From positions 1 through 36,069 of IMG/VR virus record IMGVR_UViG_3300044613_002957: a stretch of DNA of 36,069 bases; one strand, 5' to 3'. The position numbers and the translations under genes are program-made. This stretch comes from a virus. The notes below the pieces were generated by a model. It did no database searches. It saw only the letters and a program-made list of their open reading frames with translations, and had not been told where the DNA came from. Of the stretch, positions 11,297 to 33,322 are shown one piece after another. Numbering within the stretch: position 1 is the stretch's first letter; each line of letters begins with the position of its first letter.

Positions 11297-12133
11297 CTAG
11301 GCTGCGTTTTCTTTGGCGAACTGTTCGCGCATCTCGGCGAGGGAGCGCTCGAGGGCGGTTTGTTTGGGTTGGCCTTGCACAGGCAAAGGGATCGGCTGGC
11401 GCTGTTGGCGCAGCTTCTGCAGCTCGTCGGGGAAGACGACGCCGGAGTAGTTGTTGACGATGGCGCGTTCCATCTTCTCGACCGCATCGCGCTCGTTGAA
11501 CTCGGCTAATTGCTTGAGGAGTCGGCGGGCGCCAATCTCGGTAAGGGGCGACCGCTTCTGGCGCTTGTGTTCAATCAGATCAACCCAGACCGCAGCGAAC
11601 CCTGGGCCGTGAGGCAGGGGCAAGGACGCTGGGTCGAATTTGGGAGCGGTGGCGCGTTTGGGTTTCGGGGCTTCCTTTTCCGAAGAAGAGGGTAGCGAAG
11701 GCGATGAAATCGCCGGAGCGGGCGCGTCAGCGCCTTTATTACGTTCCTTTATGTTCCTTATTGTTGGGGTCTCATTCTGACACCACTTGGGTCTCATTCT
11801 GACACTACTTGGGTCTCTTTCTGAGACCGGTCTCATTCTGAGACCCATCTCGGCGGACACACCGGGGATCTTCCAAATCGATGCCTCGGCGCCGTCTCCG
11901 GCCAGCTTGCGGTGGCCCTTTTCGACCATGATCAGCTCGCCGCGGTCTTGCAGGCGGCGAAGGCAGCGGGCGACCGTGGCGCGGGCGAGGCGGGTCTTTT
12001 CCTCGAGCTTGCCCCATGAACCGAAGCAGTTGCCCGCCTCGTCGGCAAAGTCGGCCAAGGCCAGCAGGACAAGCCGGTCGGCACCTTCCGCGGGCGACTG
12101 GGTCCAGACGTAGTTGGTGGCGGCTACGCTCAT
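11297..12133 (-). CDS. O-like replication initiation protein, winged helix
   Basis: 278 residues from ATG 12133 (ATGA overlap). Residues about 8-75 (WTQSPAEGADRLVLLALADF, then SWGKLEEKTRLARATVARCL) form a winged-helix DNA-binding domain of the phage O/DnaD-type initiator class. A Lys/Pro/Ser-rich linker (about 130-175) leads to a helical C-terminal domain (about 180-278) that would contact DnaB. As in lambda O, its own gene carries iterons (11767-11846) between the two domains. It therefore likely recognises the origin in its coding DNA and loads the DnaB at 8213-9619. Confidence 0.85.
   Translation of the reverse strand: MSVAATNYVWTQSPAEGADRLVLLALADFADEAGNCFGSWGKLEEKTRLARATVARCLRRLQDRGELIMVEKGHRKLAGDGAEASIWKIPGVSAEMGLRMRPVSERDPSSVRMRPKWCQNETPTIRNIKERNKGADAPAPAISSPSLPSSSEKEAPKPKRATAPKFDPASLPLPHGPGFAAVWVDLIEHKRQKRSPLTEIGARRLLKQLAEFNERDAVEKMERAIVNNYSGVVFPDELQKLRQQRQPIPLPVQGQPKQTALERSLAEMREQFAKENAA
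11735..11846. other. Putative lambda-like replication origin (iterons plus AT-rich region)
   Basis: Four palindromic iterons lie head to tail: two near-identical 22-bp units (11767-11788, 11789-11810), then two 18-bp units (11811-11828, 11829-11846). Their shared core is GGTCTCATTCTGAGACC or a one-sided variant ending TGACAC. The last unit is a perfect 7-bp-arm inverted repeat. Directly beside them, 11735-11766 is AT-rich with repeated GTTCCTTTAT/GTTCCTTATT, the expected unwinding element. The layout copies lambda ori inside gene O. Confidence 0.75.
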
Positions 12134-12531
12134 CGGCGCCACCGGTTGCGGCGGATGCCGTCGCGGTTCTCAAAGACGAGGCGACCTTCAGCGTCGGCTT
12201 TGACGTAAACGCACTTGATGCGCTCGCCGGCCGACCAGTCCGCGGCGTTTTGCACTGAGCAGATCACCGGCTCGCTCCAGTCTGGCACCGAGACGTAGAG
12301 CAGGCGGGTGTTGGGGATCTTCTTGGGGAGAACTGCGCCGGTCACTTGGTCGCCGGGTTGATAGCCGACCTGTTTGGCGACAGTTTCGGCGAGCTGCTGG
12401 TCAGTGACTGGGGAGGCTTTGAGGGTGGCTTCTGGGGTTGGCTTGGCGGGTTCCGCGGCGGCAACCTGGGCGGGCTGACTGATGGATTGACCGATTGCTG
12501 ACTTTGCTTTGGTGAGGATGTCTTTGATCAT
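12130..12531 (-). CDS. Hypothetical protein with beta-rich C-terminal domain
   Basis: 133 residues from ATG 12531, overlapping neighbours at both ends by 4 bp. Residues 1-50 are alanine/proline-rich and low complexity. From about 55 the chain is a mixed fold (VGYQPGDQVTGAVLPKKIP, LLYVSVPDWSEPVICSV, IKCVYVKADAEGRLVF) that looks like a small beta barrel, possibly OB-like. Its position just before the O-like gene suggests a replication accessory role, but I recognise no family. Confidence 0.7.
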   Translation of the reverse strand: MIKDILTKAKSAIGQSISQPAQVAAAEPAKPTPEATLKASPVTDQQLAETVAKQVGYQPGDQVTGAVLPKKIPNTRLLYVSVPDWSEPVICSVQNAADWSAGERIKCVYVKADAEGRLVFENRDGIRRNRWRR

Positions 12532-27299: not shown

Positions 27300-28109
27300 T
27301 TAAGCTGCTTCCGCCCGCAGGTAGCTGGGGCGTTCTTTTTGTGACCATCTGAGCTGATCGCTCACATTGCTCACCAATTGGCCAAGCCGTGGACACAGCA
27401 CCTCGGCGGGTCCGTCCTTGGCCATGCACGCCGTGCAGGCGCTGACATAGTCCGGGTTGTCACCTTTGTCCTCCCGCTCCTGCCATGACTCGCCGACCTT
27501 CTCGTAGCGTCCATGGTGGATGGGCAAATTGTTCTCCTCGATGTAGCGCCACACGTCCTCATCGGTGAAGAGACGGATCGGGAAGACGAGGCTGGCGCTG
27601 TCCAGATTGCGCGCCACATCGGTGCGGATCGTGATGTCGCCGTAGACCGCATCGCTGTCGCTCGCCTTGTGGCCATGAAACATCGCATCCCACGGCCAGT
27701 TGAACGTGCCGGTCGGCCGCTGGTAGATGTCCGCAAGTCCGCAGACAAAGTCCTCGCCGTCCTTCGGGGCGCGGATACCGGTCGGCAGCATATTGTAGCG
27801 GGCGCCGATCTGGTAGTATCCGGCGATCTCCACCTCGCCGCCGCCGTCCTGCACCATCGTGGCCGAGGGCGGGAAATCATAGACCCGCAGTCCGTAGTGC
27901 TGAATCACCGCATCGGCGAACCGATACTTGTGCGGCTGCCACGGCTCGCGGTGAAACACCACCGGCAGGTCGTCCCGATGCCGCCGCACCAAGTCCAGCA
28001 CCACCATGCTATCCTTGCCGAAAGAGCAGGCGATGCACGGATTGCCAAACTCAGCGAGCGACTGCTCGATGAGCCGGTGCGCGTAGGAGACTTTGTCTTC
28101 GTAGGTCAT
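27300..28109 (-). CDS. PAPS-reductase-family PP-loop protein (DndC/CysH-like)
   Basis: 269 residues. ATG 28109 overlaps the preceding stop (TAATG). SFGKDS at 29-34 is the PP-loop that binds ATP or PAPS in adenosine-nucleotide alpha hydrolases. The following strand-helix text (MVVLDLVRRHRDDLPVVFHR) fits the Rossmann-like core. Cysteines C225, C228 and C239 (SACTACMAKDGPAEVLCP) could bind an iron-sulfur cluster or thiol. The usual CysH ending ECGxH is absent. Possible roles are sulfur mobilisation, DNA phosphorothioation (DndC-like) or nucleotide modification; which one is unknown. It lies, oddly, in the middle of the virion operon. Confidence 0.8.
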   Translation of the reverse strand: MTYEDKVSYAHRLIEQSLAEFGNPCIACSFGKDSMVVLDLVRRHRDDLPVVFHREPWQPHKYRFADAVIQHYGLRVYDFPPSATMVQDGGGEVEIAGYYQIGARYNMLPTGIRAPKDGEDFVCGLADIYQRPTGTFNWPWDAMFHGHKASDSDAVYGDITIRTDVARNLDSASLVFPIRLFTDEDVWRYIEENNLPIHHGRYEKVGESWQEREDKGDNPDYVSACTACMAKDGPAEVLCPRLGQLVSNVSDQLRWSQKERPSYLRAEAA

Positions 28110-28975
28110 TAGAAAGAAGCCGCCGCGATTCCGGTAGCCACACCGCCACCGATCCCGCCAAACATGCCCATCATGCCCGCGTTTTGCGAGGCACCGGCCT
28201 GCATTGCTGCGGCCTGCATGGCGGCGTTGTTGTTCTGCCAAGAGTTAAACATTGAGCCCTGGAGATTCCGGTTGAAGGATTCGACGTTGCCCGCCTGGTT
28301 GACGGCATTGTTGAACGTGTTGCCGATCAGTTGCGTGCCTTGTCCCATGGTCGCTTGGCCCAGGCCGAAGGCCGGGTTGAGTCCGCGGGCGAAGGGGTCG
28401 AGGGCGCCGTAGCCTTCGGCCAGGGTGATCCGGCGGCCGCGCCGGGCGAGGTCGAGCTGGTTGGCGCCGAGGGCGAATTGACGGCGCTGGTCGAGACGCT
28501 GCTGCGACATGGCATCCCGGTTGAGAATCTCCGCGGCCGACGATCCGGCGCTGGTGCCGAGACCGCGGGCGGCGAAGGCGCCGCGGGCGGATTGCTGCGC
28601 CGCCCGCTCCTGCTCCGGCGAGAGAGAACGTCCCAGCATTAGCTCCTCTTGAGCCTGACGCTGGATCTCCGCCTCGATGGCGCTGGGGGCGCTGGCCGCT
28701 TGCAGCTCCTGGTCCATCACGCCGCGGGTCCGGGCGAGGTATTGATTATCCAACTCCCCGGCCACCTGGCGGGCCGTGCCCAGCTGCATGGCCGTCATCT
28801 TCGGATACAGACGCTCGAGCGAACGCTCTTGCTCCTGCATCTGCTGAATGGCCGACCGCGTCGCCGCGGCATACATCTTGTCGTAGTCGATTGGTGCCGG
28901 CGCCGGGGGCTGCGCGACATTGTAAGTCGTGCCTCCTCCGCCACCGCCGAAAATACTACTTATTGCATTGCCCAT
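28109..28975 (-). CDS. Internal virion / tail-associated protein
   Basis: 288 residues, ATG 28975 with an excellent GGAGG site 7 nt upstream. It starts MGNAISSIFGGGGGG, then long helices (MYAAATRSAIQQMQEQERSL, SAIEAEIQRQAQEELMLGRS) and an alanine/methionine/glycine-rich C-terminus (GAMMGMFGGIGGGVATG-like) that is amphipathic or membrane-active. Glycine-tract start plus coiled coil plus hydrophobic end is the composition of podophage ejection proteins (gp14-like). Neighbours support a virion core role. Confidence 0.75.
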   Translation of the reverse strand: MGNAISSIFGGGGGGTTYNVAQPPAPAPIDYDKMYAAATRSAIQQMQEQERSLERLYPKMTAMQLGTARQVAGELDNQYLARTRGVMDQELQAASAPSAIEAEIQRQAQEELMLGRSLSPEQERAAQQSARGAFAARGLGTSAGSSAAEILNRDAMSQQRLDQRRQFALGANQLDLARRGRRITLAEGYGALDPFARGLNPAFGLGQATMGQGTQLIGNTFNNAVNQAGNVESFNRNLQGSMFNSWQNNNAAMQAAAMQAGASQNAGMMGMFGGIGGGVATGIAAASF

Positions 28976-29977: not shown

Positions 29978-30094
29978 GATTGTTTTCCTTTGTTGTTAGG
30001 CTGCGGTTTGGCTTCGCTTCGCTTCAGCCTGTCTCGCTGCGCTCGGCTCAGTTGCCATTGGAGTAGTTGAGAGTTGAGGGTTTAGAGTTGAGGG
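29978..30094. other. Intergenic region with heptamer repeats
   Basis: 117 bp between the nozzle and fibre genes. At 30066-30100 GTTGAGA, GTTGAGG, GTTTAGA, GTTGAGG, GTTAGGC run in a strict 7-bp period. Next to it is GGCTTCGCTTCGCTTCAGCC. A 20-codon frame (29996-30058, minus strand) can be read but has no ribosome site. The heptamers resemble dispersed intergenic repeats of some bacterial chromosomes. Confidence 0.5.
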
Positions 30095-32236
30095 TTAGGC
30101 GGCGTTGCGGGTTTCCGTAGGCGTCATGCTTTGGAGCGCCGCTTCGATGCTCACGTTGCGGATCTCGGGGCGTTCGGCGGTGGTCTCGAACATTAGCTCG
30201 GCGGCGTGGGCTTTGCGGCGGATCGGCTGCTTGAGCGTGTAGTCTTCGGCGAGGCCGCTGTCGTTGGTTTGTCCCGGCACCAAGGTGATCTCGGCGTCGG
30301 GGTTGATAAGATTAGCTTTGACCACAATGCTGCCGTCGTCCGGCAGAACCACATCGGCGAGGCTGCGGAGGAATCGCTTGCTGCTCATGGTCTGCATGTT
30401 GTAGCGGCGGGTCTTGATCGTGCCGGTGACTTGAGATTGCAGGCTGCCGCTTGGCTCGTCGTCCTTGCCGTTGGCGTTCTCATCGAGGAGATACAGCTTG
30501 CCGGTGCGGCGGACGTTGAAGATGCGGCCGACGTTGCTGTAGGTGCCGACGACCAAGGCGTCCACGCCGATGCCATAAACGTCGCGGCTTTCCCATTGGT
30601 CATTGAGGGCCGACCAAGTGACGACCAGATCGTTGGTGTCGTCCGGCGAGTCGAGCGTCGGGACGGCGAGGATGTAGCGGTTGGAATGCCAGATGCCAAA
30701 GGCGCGTTGCACCTTGCTCTGGTCGATGCGCTCAAAGAGGTCGGCGACCGGATCACTGAGCGGCTTGGTGTCGCCGCGCAACTTGAGGTCGAGCTGGGTG
30801 TCGAGACGGTAGACTCCGGCGTCTGAGAGGAAGAAGACGAAGCGACCGGCGGTCACGATGCTGTTGCGGGCACTGCACCCGATCTCGTCGGTGACGAGTT
30901 CCAGCTTCGCCACGGCGGTGTCGATGGCGAAGTCGCTGCCATTGGTCGCAGGGAATTGCGCCAAGGTCGCCAGCCAGATGCTCTTGCGGCAGAAGACCAG
31001 CGCCGCGCCTTCGGCCCATGGATGCACGGCCATGACAAAGTCTCCGCCACCGGCGCCGGTGCGGAAGGACTGCCAGAATGGATCGTAAAGGTCGGCATCA
31101 AGGTAGTCGGAGATGGCCACTTGGTCGCGGCCGTCAGGGATGATGAGGCGGTTCTGGATGTAGCTCGCCCAGCCGACCGAGCGCATACGCTTGTAGGTCG
31201 GACCTTCGGCGGGCACACCGCCCGCAGCGCGGACGAAGCTGCCGCTGCCGGTCCAGTAGATCGGCGGCTTGACGCGGCGGACTCGGATATTGGCAACGGC
31301 GGTCGTGGCGGTGCCGCTCGGCACGGTGATCTCAAAGGAGTTGGTATTTACGTTGGTCGCCAGAATGTCGAACTCATGGCCGTCGAAGGCGGCGACCGTG
31401 CTCCCCTCGATGCGGACCCGCTGACCGGCACTTAGACCGTGCGTGTTGACGTTGACCGTTGCCGTGGTGGACGAAACCGTGATCCCGCTGGCGTTGGTGA
31501 ACTGCTGCTTGAAAGTTGTGGCCGGATCAATCGGTGCTTCGCGCAGGATATAGAGGCGGTCGTAGGCTTGGACGATGCTCACGCTGTCCTGCGGATCAAT
31601 CGTCTCGTCCGGCGAGCTGGGATAGCCAACCGTGACAACGGTGTCGGTCGGCGAGGTGTTGCGCCAGAGGTAGGCGCTGTCGGGTCCAGCCATGACGACG
31701 TATTCGTTCGCGTTGTCGTAGTTGCGGCTGGCGAAGACTCCGGCGCCGAAGATGCCGCCGCTGTAGGTGGTCTTGACGAGCGGCCCCGCGTTGGCCAGCA
31801 GTGTGCCGGTGGCGTTGGCCGCCGGGGTGCTGGTCATGGTGTAGGTAAAGGTGCTGCCGCTGGCGCCCGCAATGGCGAAGTCGCCGTTGTAGAACGTGGC
31901 GTCCGCTCCGGTCGCGCCGCGAATGTTGACGGTCTGGCCGTTGGTGTAGCCATGGGCGGCGGCCGTGGTCACGGTGGCGGTCGTGCTGCTGAAGGTGATC
32001 GTGTTGATCGCCCGGTCCACGGCGAGGTTGAAGGAAAGTGTGAGCGGTTCGTCCGCCGTGGAGATGGCATCGGCGAGACGCTTGGCGCCTTTGCGGGTCT
32101 GCGCCGTGCCGCGCTCGAGGCGCATGTTGACGCTGTCTTGGAGCATTCCGGCGGGCAAGGTCAGCGGGTTCAAGCGGCTGGCGAAGCCGATGAAGCCGTT
32201 GTCGCCGTCGCGTTGGACTGGAGATTCTAATGCCAT
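30095..32236 (-). CDS. Tail tubular B-like nozzle protein
   Basis: 713 residues from ATG 32236. The N-terminal GFIGFASRLNPLTLPAGMLQ and SVNMRLERGTAQTRKGAKRL match the start of podophage tail tubular protein B and related nozzle/stabilisation proteins ('...NVdYrrGvv.krKG...'). The remainder is beta-rich with several WESRDVYG-like and KLYLLDENANG blocks. It forms the lower tail tube that contacts the receptor-binding parts. No ribosome site is seen, and the start overlaps the stop of a short REP-encoded frame (TAATG), so it may be coupled to it. Confidence 0.85.
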   Translation of the reverse strand: MALESPVQRDGDNGFIGFASRLNPLTLPAGMLQDSVNMRLERGTAQTRKGAKRLADAISTADEPLTLSFNLAVDRAINTITFSSTTATVTTAAAHGYTNGQTVNIRGATGADATFYNGDFAIAGASGSTFTYTMTSTPAANATGTLLANAGPLVKTTYSGGIFGAGVFASRNYDNANEYVVMAGPDSAYLWRNTSPTDTVVTVGYPSSPDETIDPQDSVSIVQAYDRLYILREAPIDPATTFKQQFTNASGITVSSTTATVNVNTHGLSAGQRVRIEGSTVAAFDGHEFDILATNVNTNSFEITVPSGTATTAVANIRVRRVKPPIYWTGSGSFVRAAGGVPAEGPTYKRMRSVGWASYIQNRLIIPDGRDQVAISDYLDADLYDPFWQSFRTGAGGGDFVMAVHPWAEGAALVFCRKSIWLATLAQFPATNGSDFAIDTAVAKLELVTDEIGCSARNSIVTAGRFVFFLSDAGVYRLDTQLDLKLRGDTKPLSDPVADLFERIDQSKVQRAFGIWHSNRYILAVPTLDSPDDTNDLVVTWSALNDQWESRDVYGIGVDALVVGTYSNVGRIFNVRRTGKLYLLDENANGKDDEPSGSLQSQVTGTIKTRRYNMQTMSSKRFLRSLADVVLPDDGSIVVKANLINPDAEITLVPGQTNDSGLAEDYTLKQPIRRKAHAAELMFETTAERPEIRNVSIEAALQSMTPTETRNAA

Positions 32237-32246
32237 TAGAGGATAG

Positions 32247-32340
32247 GGCTGAGACTTGAGTGTGAGACTTGAGTGATATTGCTCCGGCGGTCATAGACCG
32301 CCGCTACAGCATTACTCAGGTTTCCAGTTTCGAGTTTCAT
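32247..32340. repeat. REP-like composite element, copy 1
   Basis: Direct repeat GAGACTTGAGTG twice, then a hairpin CGGCGGTC-ATA-GACCGCCG (32285-32303), then TTACTCAGGTTTC...GTTTCAT. The outer flanks are roughly inverted copies of each other. The same layout occurs at 33045-33140 with a different hairpin. On the minus strand it opens a 34-codon frame (ATG 32340) that ends by TAATG overlap with the nozzle gene. Confidence 0.75.
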
Positions 32341-32342
32341 AC

Positions 32343-32930
32343 TTAGTTCAACGCGGCTTTGAGCCGGGTCTTAAAGCGGGCGGCGTCGCCGGGGGAGATG
32401 TCGGTTTTGCGGGTTGGGGCGACTTGTTGGTGGGTGAGGACGAGGTTTAGGGGGATGTTCCACTTCTTCATGCGGGGGACGAGGTATTCTAGGGCGCTGT
32501 TCATGGCGGCTTCGCCGAGGGGGTCTTCGTAGGTGTTGCCTTCCCAGGCGACGCCGAGGGACCAGCTATTCAGGTCGGGGCGGCCGTGCCAGTTGCTGCG
32601 GCCGGCGTGCCAGCAGCGGTCGGTGTCGCTTCCGAAGACGGTGCGGCGGCCGTCTCTGGCGATGAGGACGTGGTAGCTCACTTTAGCGGCGGGGTTGGTG
32701 ATCCAGGCGCAGCTGCCGTGGTAGCTGCCGTCCGAGTGATGCAGGACGATGGCTTCCGGTTTGATGCGGTGGGCTTGTTTGTTCGGCGTGTTCAGCCGGC
32801 GCTCGTCGTAGGTCGTCAGCGGTGGCTCGACGGTGAAGCTCGTTGTGGATGCGGAGGGCAAATTCGGCGAGTCCGGCGCTGGGGTAGCGTCGGATTTCTT
32901 GCCAAAGATTCTCTTGAGCCAGGTCCACAT
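32343..32930 (-). CDS. N-acetylmuramoyl-L-alanine amidase (T7 lysozyme-like endolysin)
   Basis: 195 residues from ATG 32930. N-terminal helix and disordered linker (1-55), then an Amidase_2/PGRP domain: AIVLHHSDGSY (H64/H65 zinc ligand), SYHVLIARDG (Y86 region), SDTDRCWHAGRSNW, SWSLGVAWEGN and LVLTHQQVAPTRKTDISPG (H167, D177). The zinc amidase cleaves the bond between muramic acid and L-alanine. It lies after two holin-like genes and a small lipoprotein, forming a lysis cassette. Confidence 0.9.
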   Translation of the reverse strand: MWTWLKRIFGKKSDATPAPDSPNLPSASTTSFTVEPPLTTYDERRLNTPNKQAHRIKPEAIVLHHSDGSYHGSCAWITNPAAKVSYHVLIARDGRRTVFGSDTDRCWHAGRSNWHGRPDLNSWSLGVAWEGNTYEDPLGEAAMNSALEYLVPRMKKWNIPLNLVLTHQQVAPTRKTDISPGDAARFKTRLKAALN

Positions 32931-32933
32931 GGG

Positions 32934-33140
32934 TTATTTCGCGTGACCCTTGGGCGGGGGATTGACGGTGACGGTGGCTTGTTGACGCACGAAGTCGTAG
33001 CCGACGGTGACGCAGCTCGTTGTCGCCAGAGCGACAACGCAGAGGGCTGAGACTTGAGTTAGAGACTTGAGTGAAGGGCAGCGGCGGGTCCGGAGGCCCC
33101 GCCCTACCTTGTTACTCAGGTTTCGCGCTTCAGGTTTCAT
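32934..33140 (-). CDS. Small lipoprotein, spanin-like candidate
   Basis: 68 residues from ATG 33140. The segment VSALCVVALATTSC ends in a lipobox-like Cys43, giving a short mature part VTVGYDFVRQQATVTVNPPP. A tiny proline-containing lipoprotein beside an amidase suggests an outer-membrane spanin. Caution: the first 32 codons are entirely REP-like element 2, and the hydrophobic core is encoded by a perfect hairpin (33018-33039), so the signal may be produced by repeat DNA or the true start may differ. Stop lies 3 bp before the amidase start. Confidence 0.5.
   Translation of the reverse strand: MKPEARNLSNKVGRGLRTRRCPSLKSLTQVSALCVVALATTSCVTVGYDFVRQQATVTVNPPPKGHAK
33018..33039. repeat. Perfect 9-bp hairpin inside the lipoprotein gene
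   Basis: CGTTGTCGC-CAGA-GCGACAACG is a perfect stem with tetraloop, located directly beside REP-like element 2. It encodes the hydrophobic core of the signal peptide in the minus-strand frame. Confidence 0.6.
33045..33140. repeat. REP-like composite element, copy 2
   Basis: Same flanks as copy 1 (GGCTGAGACTTGAGT... and ...TTACTCAGGTTTC...GTTTCAT) but a different central hairpin, GGCGGG...CCCGCC (33083-33103) with inner TCCGGA. Both copies read on the minus strand as MKxExxNLSNxV... frames. Two related elements about 800 bp apart bracket the amidase and lipoprotein region. Confidence 0.75.
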
Positions 33141-33148
33141 CCTTTGTT

Positions 33149-33322
33149 TTACAGGCGTGCGGTGCCGTCTTTCGCTACCACTAATCCCCATGCAGCCATG
33201 AGACTGGCGGCAATGAGGCCGATGTCAGGGATAGTGCCGGTGGCAAGGAATTCCTTCGCGCCAGTCGCCAAGGCGATGAGGGCGGTGAGGATTCCGATGG
33301 TCGTTGTTTTCCAGTTACGCAT
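33149..33322 (-). CDS. Holin-like membrane protein
   Basis: 57 residues from ATG 33322, with AAGGAG about 10 nt upstream. MRNWKTTTIGILTALIALAT begins with a short positive stretch and first helix; a second hydrophobic segment (IGLIAASLMAAWGLVV) follows, ending AKDGTARL. The pattern 'NWKTT...G...A...GLxxAKD' is common in small phage holins with two membrane helices. It would permit the amidase to reach the wall. First of two membrane proteins in the cassette. Confidence 0.7.
   Translation of the reverse strand: MRNWKTTTIGILTALIALATGAKEFLATGTIPDIGLIAASLMAAWGLVVAKDGTARL

Follow-up and report, generated by a model that had tools for sequence, protein, structure and literature searches.

Heptad-armed REP elements at late-gene junctions of a tailed phage and their in-frame occurrence in phage and Verrucomicrobiota genes

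Palindromic repeats read in frame are known above all from Rickettsia chromosomes. The Rickettsia palindromic elements (RPEs) are repeats of ~100-150 bp that stand in frame in unrelated protein genes and encode a conserved peptide (PMC10969869, PMC3733652). GTAG REPs and BIMEs have been described in an arrangement with a RAYT gene, the REPtron, and Opitutus terrae (Verrucomicrobia) is reported to be rich in GTAG repeats; intragenic REPs are known as well, and the word phage is absent from the text of that paper (PMC3733652). In cluster K mycobacteriophages, the ESAS are imperfect inverted repeats with a variable spacer directly 5' of start codons, located in the non-structural half of the genes, with a proposed role in translation initiation and without being translated (PMC3203893). 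In Beggiatoaceae, the 7-nt unit TAACTGA forms direct repeats scattered over intergenic regions (PMC4679880).

Here we describe elements from a complete IMG/VR virus record of 36,069 bases, referred to below as the window, and from its relatives. Like RPEs, they are short palindromic repeats in frame in unrelated protein genes, a likeness judged by their behaviour; unlike RPEs, they are located in phages and Verrucomicrobiota, have arms of 7-nt units around an exchangeable REP core and form bridging mini-ORFs with stop/start overlap. With GTAG REPs, BIMEs and REPtrons they share the GTAG followed by a palindrome, the dispersal, the head-to-head doublets and a Y1_Tnp gene adjoining one of these, but the phage REP sits within heptad arms, at gene junctions and in frame. 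Imperfect inverted repeats around a variable middle near phage start codons are also a trait of ESAS; however, the ESAS spacer is mostly 4-13 bp long and adjoins a 13-bp SAS (GGGATAGGAGCCC), for which the window gave 0 matches with ≤2 mismatches, and identity with SAS/ESAS is thereby ruled out. The Beggiatoaceae repeats differ in unit and organisms and do not form inverted arms around a REP core. The heptad arms, the exchangeable cores, the phage location and the bridging ORFs set the elements apart from RPEs and REPs, and among open-access papers we found no description of REPs or of such in-frame elements in phages.

Two related elements in the late region of the phage

Genes for a terminase, a DnaB helicase, an O-like initiator, an exonuclease, an integrase and tail proteins were recognised in the window, which comes from a tailed and probably temperate phage; no transposase was recognised in its 36,069 bases. 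A phosphoadenosine phosphosulfate reductase-like gene (27300-28241, PHROG 424) may be an auxiliary metabolic gene. Within the O-like replication initiator gene (11297-12142), a 22-nt repeat (GGGTCTCATTCTGACACCACTT) stands in about three copies at 11767-11851; these are likely to be origin iterons by comparison with lambda.

Table 1. Repeat elements and neighbouring genes in the window
Feature	Positions	Strand	Basis or remark
Third junction cassette, 20-aa ORF MATEPSAARQAEAKRSQTAA	29996..30058	-	Repeat GAGCCGAGCGNAGCGAGACAGGCTGAAGCG... common to 15 viral contigs
Tail-associated gene 3' of copy 1	30095..32236	-	Weak tail fibre/virion structural matches (PHROGs)
Copy 1, entire element	32236..32345	-	
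Copy 1, 34-codon ORF MKLETGNLSNAVAAVYDRRSNITQVSHSSLSPIL with stop	32236..32340	-	Translation; empty-site comparison
Copy 1, right arm TCACTCAAGTCTCACACTCAAGTCTCAGCCCT	32245..32276	-	Arm comparison
Copy 1, core, GTAG-REP hairpin TGTAGCGGCGGTCTATGACCGCCGGAGCA	32281..32310	-	Exact 23-mer scattered over Verrucomicrobiota genomes
Copy 1, left (upstream) arm	32312..32345	-	GAAACTC GAAACTG GAAACCT GAGTAA
Endolysin (amidase)	32343..32930	-	PHROG 1794, 833
Lipoprotein-like gene, 68 aa	32934..33140	-	n-region encoded by copy 2
Copy 2, entire element	33043..33148	-	ATG at 33140 starts lipoprotein-like gene
Copy 2, right arm TCACTCAAGTCTCTAACTCAAGTCTCAGCCCT	33043..33074	-	Arm comparison
Copy 2, core, GTAG-REP hairpin GGTAGGGCGGGGCCTCCGGACCCGCCGCTGCCC	33076..33107	-	Nine copies (≤1 mismatch) in G003
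Copy 2, left arm	33112..33148	-	Heptad TGA to CGA (ACC TGA to GCG CGA), frame stays open
Small membrane protein, 57 aa, holin-like	33149..33322	-	Position and character, without family match

As the initial annotation had noticed, two related elements of ~104 nt share their flanks and differ in their hairpins (Table 1). They are 75% identical over their length, matching each other with E values of 6e-13 and 4e-12 in a search within the record, and the arms are nearly alike (94% over 32 nt, 81% over 37 nt). The arms, 32-37 nt long, are composed of 7-nt units. Read on the minus strand, which is the coding one, the left arm is GAAACYT-GAAACYT-GAAACCT-GAGTAA; the right arm, TCACTCAAGTCTC-NN-ACTCAAGTCTC-AGCCCT, inverts it imperfectly. 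The pattern of the family is that of imperfectly inverted heptad arms (GAAACYT...GAGTRA / TCACTCAAGTCTC...) flanking an exchangeable hairpin. Copy 1 has TAA or CTAA on each side, which stop-codon selection could also yield, and we found no clean rule of target-site duplication and no cognate transposase for the arms. The template strand folds with -51.7 and -58.1 kcal/mol (z -7.3, -6.5) and the mRNA strand with -33.5 and -36.2 kcal/mol (z -4.2, -2.1); this asymmetry stems from the arm mismatches, which are A/C in the mRNA but G/T in the template. Between 31900 and 33500 no intrinsic terminator (GC hairpin plus T run) was present, with a mean of 1.9 in shuffled sequences; no sigma-70 promoter was found at the element region, and the elements match no RNA family in Rfam.

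The proposal that the two copies bracket the lysis genes applies in part: copy 1 follows the endolysin gene, and copy 2 stands between the holin-like gene and the lipoprotein-like gene. The latter might encode an o-spanin-like protein, judged from its position and proline-rich end. PHROGs gave no family match for the lipoprotein, the holin-like protein or the 107-aa protein discussed below.

Both copies are open on the minus strand, as had been pointed out, and they are read in different ways. The ATG of copy 1 lies 2 nt after the endolysin stop, and the stop of its ORF overlaps the next start as TAATG; the overlap had been noted correctly, whereas the naming of the next gene as a nozzle was not borne out by its matches. 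When 80 endolysin relatives were compared, many of those lacking copy 1 had an endolysin stop directly overlapping the start of the next gene (AACTAATGGCATTAGA), while the filled site, AACTAA-GT-ATG(element)CTCTAATGGCATTAGA, is present in the record and in phage loci L007, L019 and L020. Compared with its empty relatives, the insert retains the stop/start overlap by means of its 34-codon ORF. At locus L130 the endolysin itself terminates in a remnant of the right arm.

Copy 2 encodes the start of the 68-aa protein (MKPEARNLSNKVGRGLRTRRCPSLKSLTQVSALCVVALATTSC...). Between the copy-2 ATG and the hydrophobic part there is no further in-frame start codon (ATG, GTG or TTG), and the gene must therefore start in or before the element. 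In all relatives long enough to score, the element-bearing lipoprotein gene is in frame (29/29): six have full copies, 22 have lost 12 and 18 nt, and the remaining one has lost the 12 nt only. Relatives without the element have other signal peptides. The claim that copy 2 supplies a lipoprotein N-terminus is upheld by this comparison, although the lipobox of the record's own protein, ATTSC, is weak.

Sites, cores and reading frame in related phages

Exact-pattern scans located the same arms in ~37 IMG/VR contigs, where they mark at least nine different gene junctions with at least six different cores; the orientation towards the downstream gene is constant at the phage junctions where it was read. 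Different cores occur at one and the same junction, as the initial annotation had supposed in calling them exchangeable. Loci L246 and L275 have arms and site in common and contain either GTAGCGGCGCCGTCCCCGGCGCCG or GTAGCGGCGGTCTATGACCGCCGG as core; the two differ in length by 15 nt and the frame is kept. Three different cores are found at one junction in L008, L026 and L038, and the junction 5' of the MNPNV gene contains core 1 in L038 and L009 and core 2 in L006 and L010. In a count over 92 phage loci, GTAG-plus-hairpin sites amounted to 0.52% compared with 0.04-0.23% for most control tetramers and 0.73% for TAGG, which overlaps GTAGG; we give this excess little weight because the sites are few and the strict definition misses core 2.

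The canonical heptad frame, ATG AAA CYT GAA ACY TGA, is closed. At five junctions where the element carries the ATG, the TGA has been lost by different changes (ACT GGA, ACC GGA, GCG CGA, GCA CGA), whereas elements with CTG in place of ATG keep the TGA in that frame; one ATG element, in L023 and its relatives, is the exception and is closed. At the junctions in L008, L025, L026 and L023 the element is present untranslated, and coding is therefore not its sole state. The C-terminal tails of the 107-aa phage protein, available from 30 loci, are mostly in-frame mosaics of REPs and heptads in which the GTA of GTAG is usually read as valine; the tail in L250 has three REPs, and the outer relatives L265-L269, L273 and L274 have short tails. 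The stop/start overlap at the end of this gene is present at 29 of the 30 loci. Single ORFs would often be open by chance (23-51% of shuffles, with a product of about 0.008 over the five sites), and as openness at one site is weak evidence, we place the weight on the frame being kept over deletions, swaps and sites. Taken at the level of sequence, these patterns support the view that the elements are read through as coding sequence.

Other repeats occupy the same kind of position. The third junction cassette of the window is preceded by CTCAACT heptads (30065-30096, minus strand); a single one of the 213 genomes from the order treated below contains its 20-aa repeat, and a peptide resembling its ORF forms an in-frame tail in L247. 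Close relatives carry the unrelated heptad families CAACTGC, TCAACYC, TCTTAGT, TCACTCG and CTTCCCAC at the same junctions (L085-L161 after the endolysin, others elsewhere), mostly G-poor directly 5' of the start codon. A second arm type, TTCAGTG...CAACTGAAAAC, stands 5' of the lipoprotein with or without the hairpin GGTCGCCGCGGCGACC (L006, L090 and L094 versus L007, L019 and L091), and this hairpin is elsewhere the core of a GAAACYT element.

Related repeats in Verrucomicrobiota chromosomes

Hairpins similar to those of the phage had been proposed to be scattered over Verrucomicrobiota genomes. They are, but in a minority: 6 of 145 genomes contain core 1 (GTAGCGGCGGTCTNNGACCGCCG), in 150, 68, 31, 12, 5 and 4 copies, which often form head-to-head doublets; the reversed pattern gave 0 matches. 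Core 2 is present in nine copies (≤1 mismatch) in G003, which belongs to these six and is a MAG titled Chthoniobacter flavus. In both cores GTAG stands at the foot of an imperfect palindrome (GTAGCGGCGGTCTATGACCGCCG and GTAGGGCGGGGCCTCCGGACCCGCCG). Y1_Tnp (PF01797) genes are found in all six core-1 genomes, and the search for an IS200-like REP transposase, which the initial annotation had suggested, led to a Y1/RAYT-type gene, assigned by its Y1_Tnp domain, 61 nt from a core-1 doublet (G003:C11:41541-41807). By the sequence features tested, both cores count as host-type REPs.

In 12 of the 145 genomes we detected the heptad arm, (GARACYT)3; G136, a single-contig chromosome of 4.15 Mb, gave 78 pattern matches and also contains a long tandem GAGACCT array (G136:C1:2187349-2187441). 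Complete arm-core-arm elements are rare in chromosomes (1/241 in the phylum sample, 6/213 in the order). Chromosomal arm elements adjoin gcpE, the GMP synthase gene and other housekeeping genes, and with the chromosomal heptads they led us to drop the notion that the arms are strictly phage-specific. The 3' end of gcpE (ispG) is occupied by an arm element in two Verrucomicrobiota MAGs (L057:3532-3586 and L066:1959-2013), which suggests an old or repeated insertion site.

Some chromosomal copies are also read in frame. PurL of G136 contains heptads (PDPQVSGFRSQVS) as a 13-residue insertion relative to solved PurL, and in-frame heptads occur in a short-chain dehydrogenase (SDR) of the same genome, by comparison with a solved homologue, and in two other ORFs. 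A topoisomerase VI-B from a MAG carries a complete element in a linker (KNLKPETGNLSKKEGTSESETQVSGFRSQVSYL) that is absent from the solved homologue. The chromosomal in-frame peptide matches the phage frame. Among unrelated proteins, the repeat is thus in frame in the lipoprotein, the tail of the 107-aa protein and topoisomerase VI-B (whole element), and as heptad arms only in PurL and the SDR. Together with the stop-free arms, the in-frame deletions and the frame kept through core exchange, these chromosomal heptads agree with the RPE-like behaviour that had been suggested for the phage elements.

Endolysin relatives with 47-50% identity are encoded in three genomes of the order. The phage host is likely to belong in or near the order of these genomes, as the hairpins had been taken to indicate; it is not proven, since the assignment rests on common repeats and on endolysin relatives.

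Possible origins of the cassettes and what they may mean

We think it probable that composite cassettes, made of heptad arms and an exchangeable REP core, enter and are swapped at the junctions of tightly packed late genes in this phage group, and that the insertions which keep the frame survive. The cassettes might move by recombination on the repeated units, which the phage exonuclease could serve, or might be seeded by RAYT activity of the host. At translationally coupled junctions, only insertions that leave translation continuous would persist. Such insertions could become a bridging mini-ORF terminating on the next start codon, as in copy 1, a new N-terminus, as in copy 2, or an added C-terminal stretch on the upstream protein.

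The two similar copies 800 nt apart might have arisen by simple duplication within the phage, but this is ruled out for practical purposes by their different cores, by the at least nine sites in other phages and by the chromosomal relatives; the initial annotation had named local duplication, or a lack of dispersed relatives in chromosomes, as what would speak against its view, and we found neither. It is also rather improbable that purely neutral or selfish host repeats happen to be open by chance: REPs and heptads are indeed abundant in some genomes of the host group and REPs can lie within genes (PMC3733652), but neither the systematic disappearance of the heptad TGA from elements that carry an ATG nor the frame kept in 29/29 and 29/30 cases fits this view. 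Somewhat less doubtful, though still unlikely, is a selected regulatory element that is kept for its RNA or DNA structure, as an mRNA stabiliser, an RNase III site or an ESAS-like translation-initiation leader, with the open frame as a side effect. The strong strand-asymmetric folding, the constant orientation at the phage junctions seen and the G-poor, pyrimidine-rich right arm directly 5' of the start codon would suit such a role. However, related phages with the same genes often have no element or unrelated heptads at these places, the arms decay at the lipoprotein while the frame is kept, and Rfam match, terminator and promoter are all absent.

The strongest rival starts from recombination. 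Boundary sequences have been proposed for mosaic phages, and the heptads and hairpins at gene borders might provide homology for the exchange of modules between phages, coding being merely tolerated. The gene after the endolysin varies among relatives, often with a heptad cassette before it, and several unrelated heptad families occupy the same junctions; on the other hand, many of the exchanges of downstream genes are here inseparable from shared ancestry. We regard recombination joints as a possibility of limited probability, which could hold together with the entry and swapping of cassettes that we favour. Regulatory structure, recombination joint and neutral repeat are not mutually exclusive.

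If cassettes do enter and are swapped at late-gene junctions, their three fates would keep supplying new protein ends, a role that has also been proposed for RPEs. More tentatively, we speculate that the phage group maintains junction cassettes of host REPs and heptads as a frame-preserving exchange system that renews N- and C-terminal ends with the coupling unbroken; if true, lysis and virion proteins would gain new ends in this way. The common REPs tie these phages to the Verrucomicrobiota host group. The path from repeat DNA to new protein has so far been hard to follow because such events are old and seldom happen. With dozens of close phage relatives, the same junctions can be compared empty, filled, swapped and decayed, a natural series in which to test how non-coding repeat DNA is converted into protein ends.
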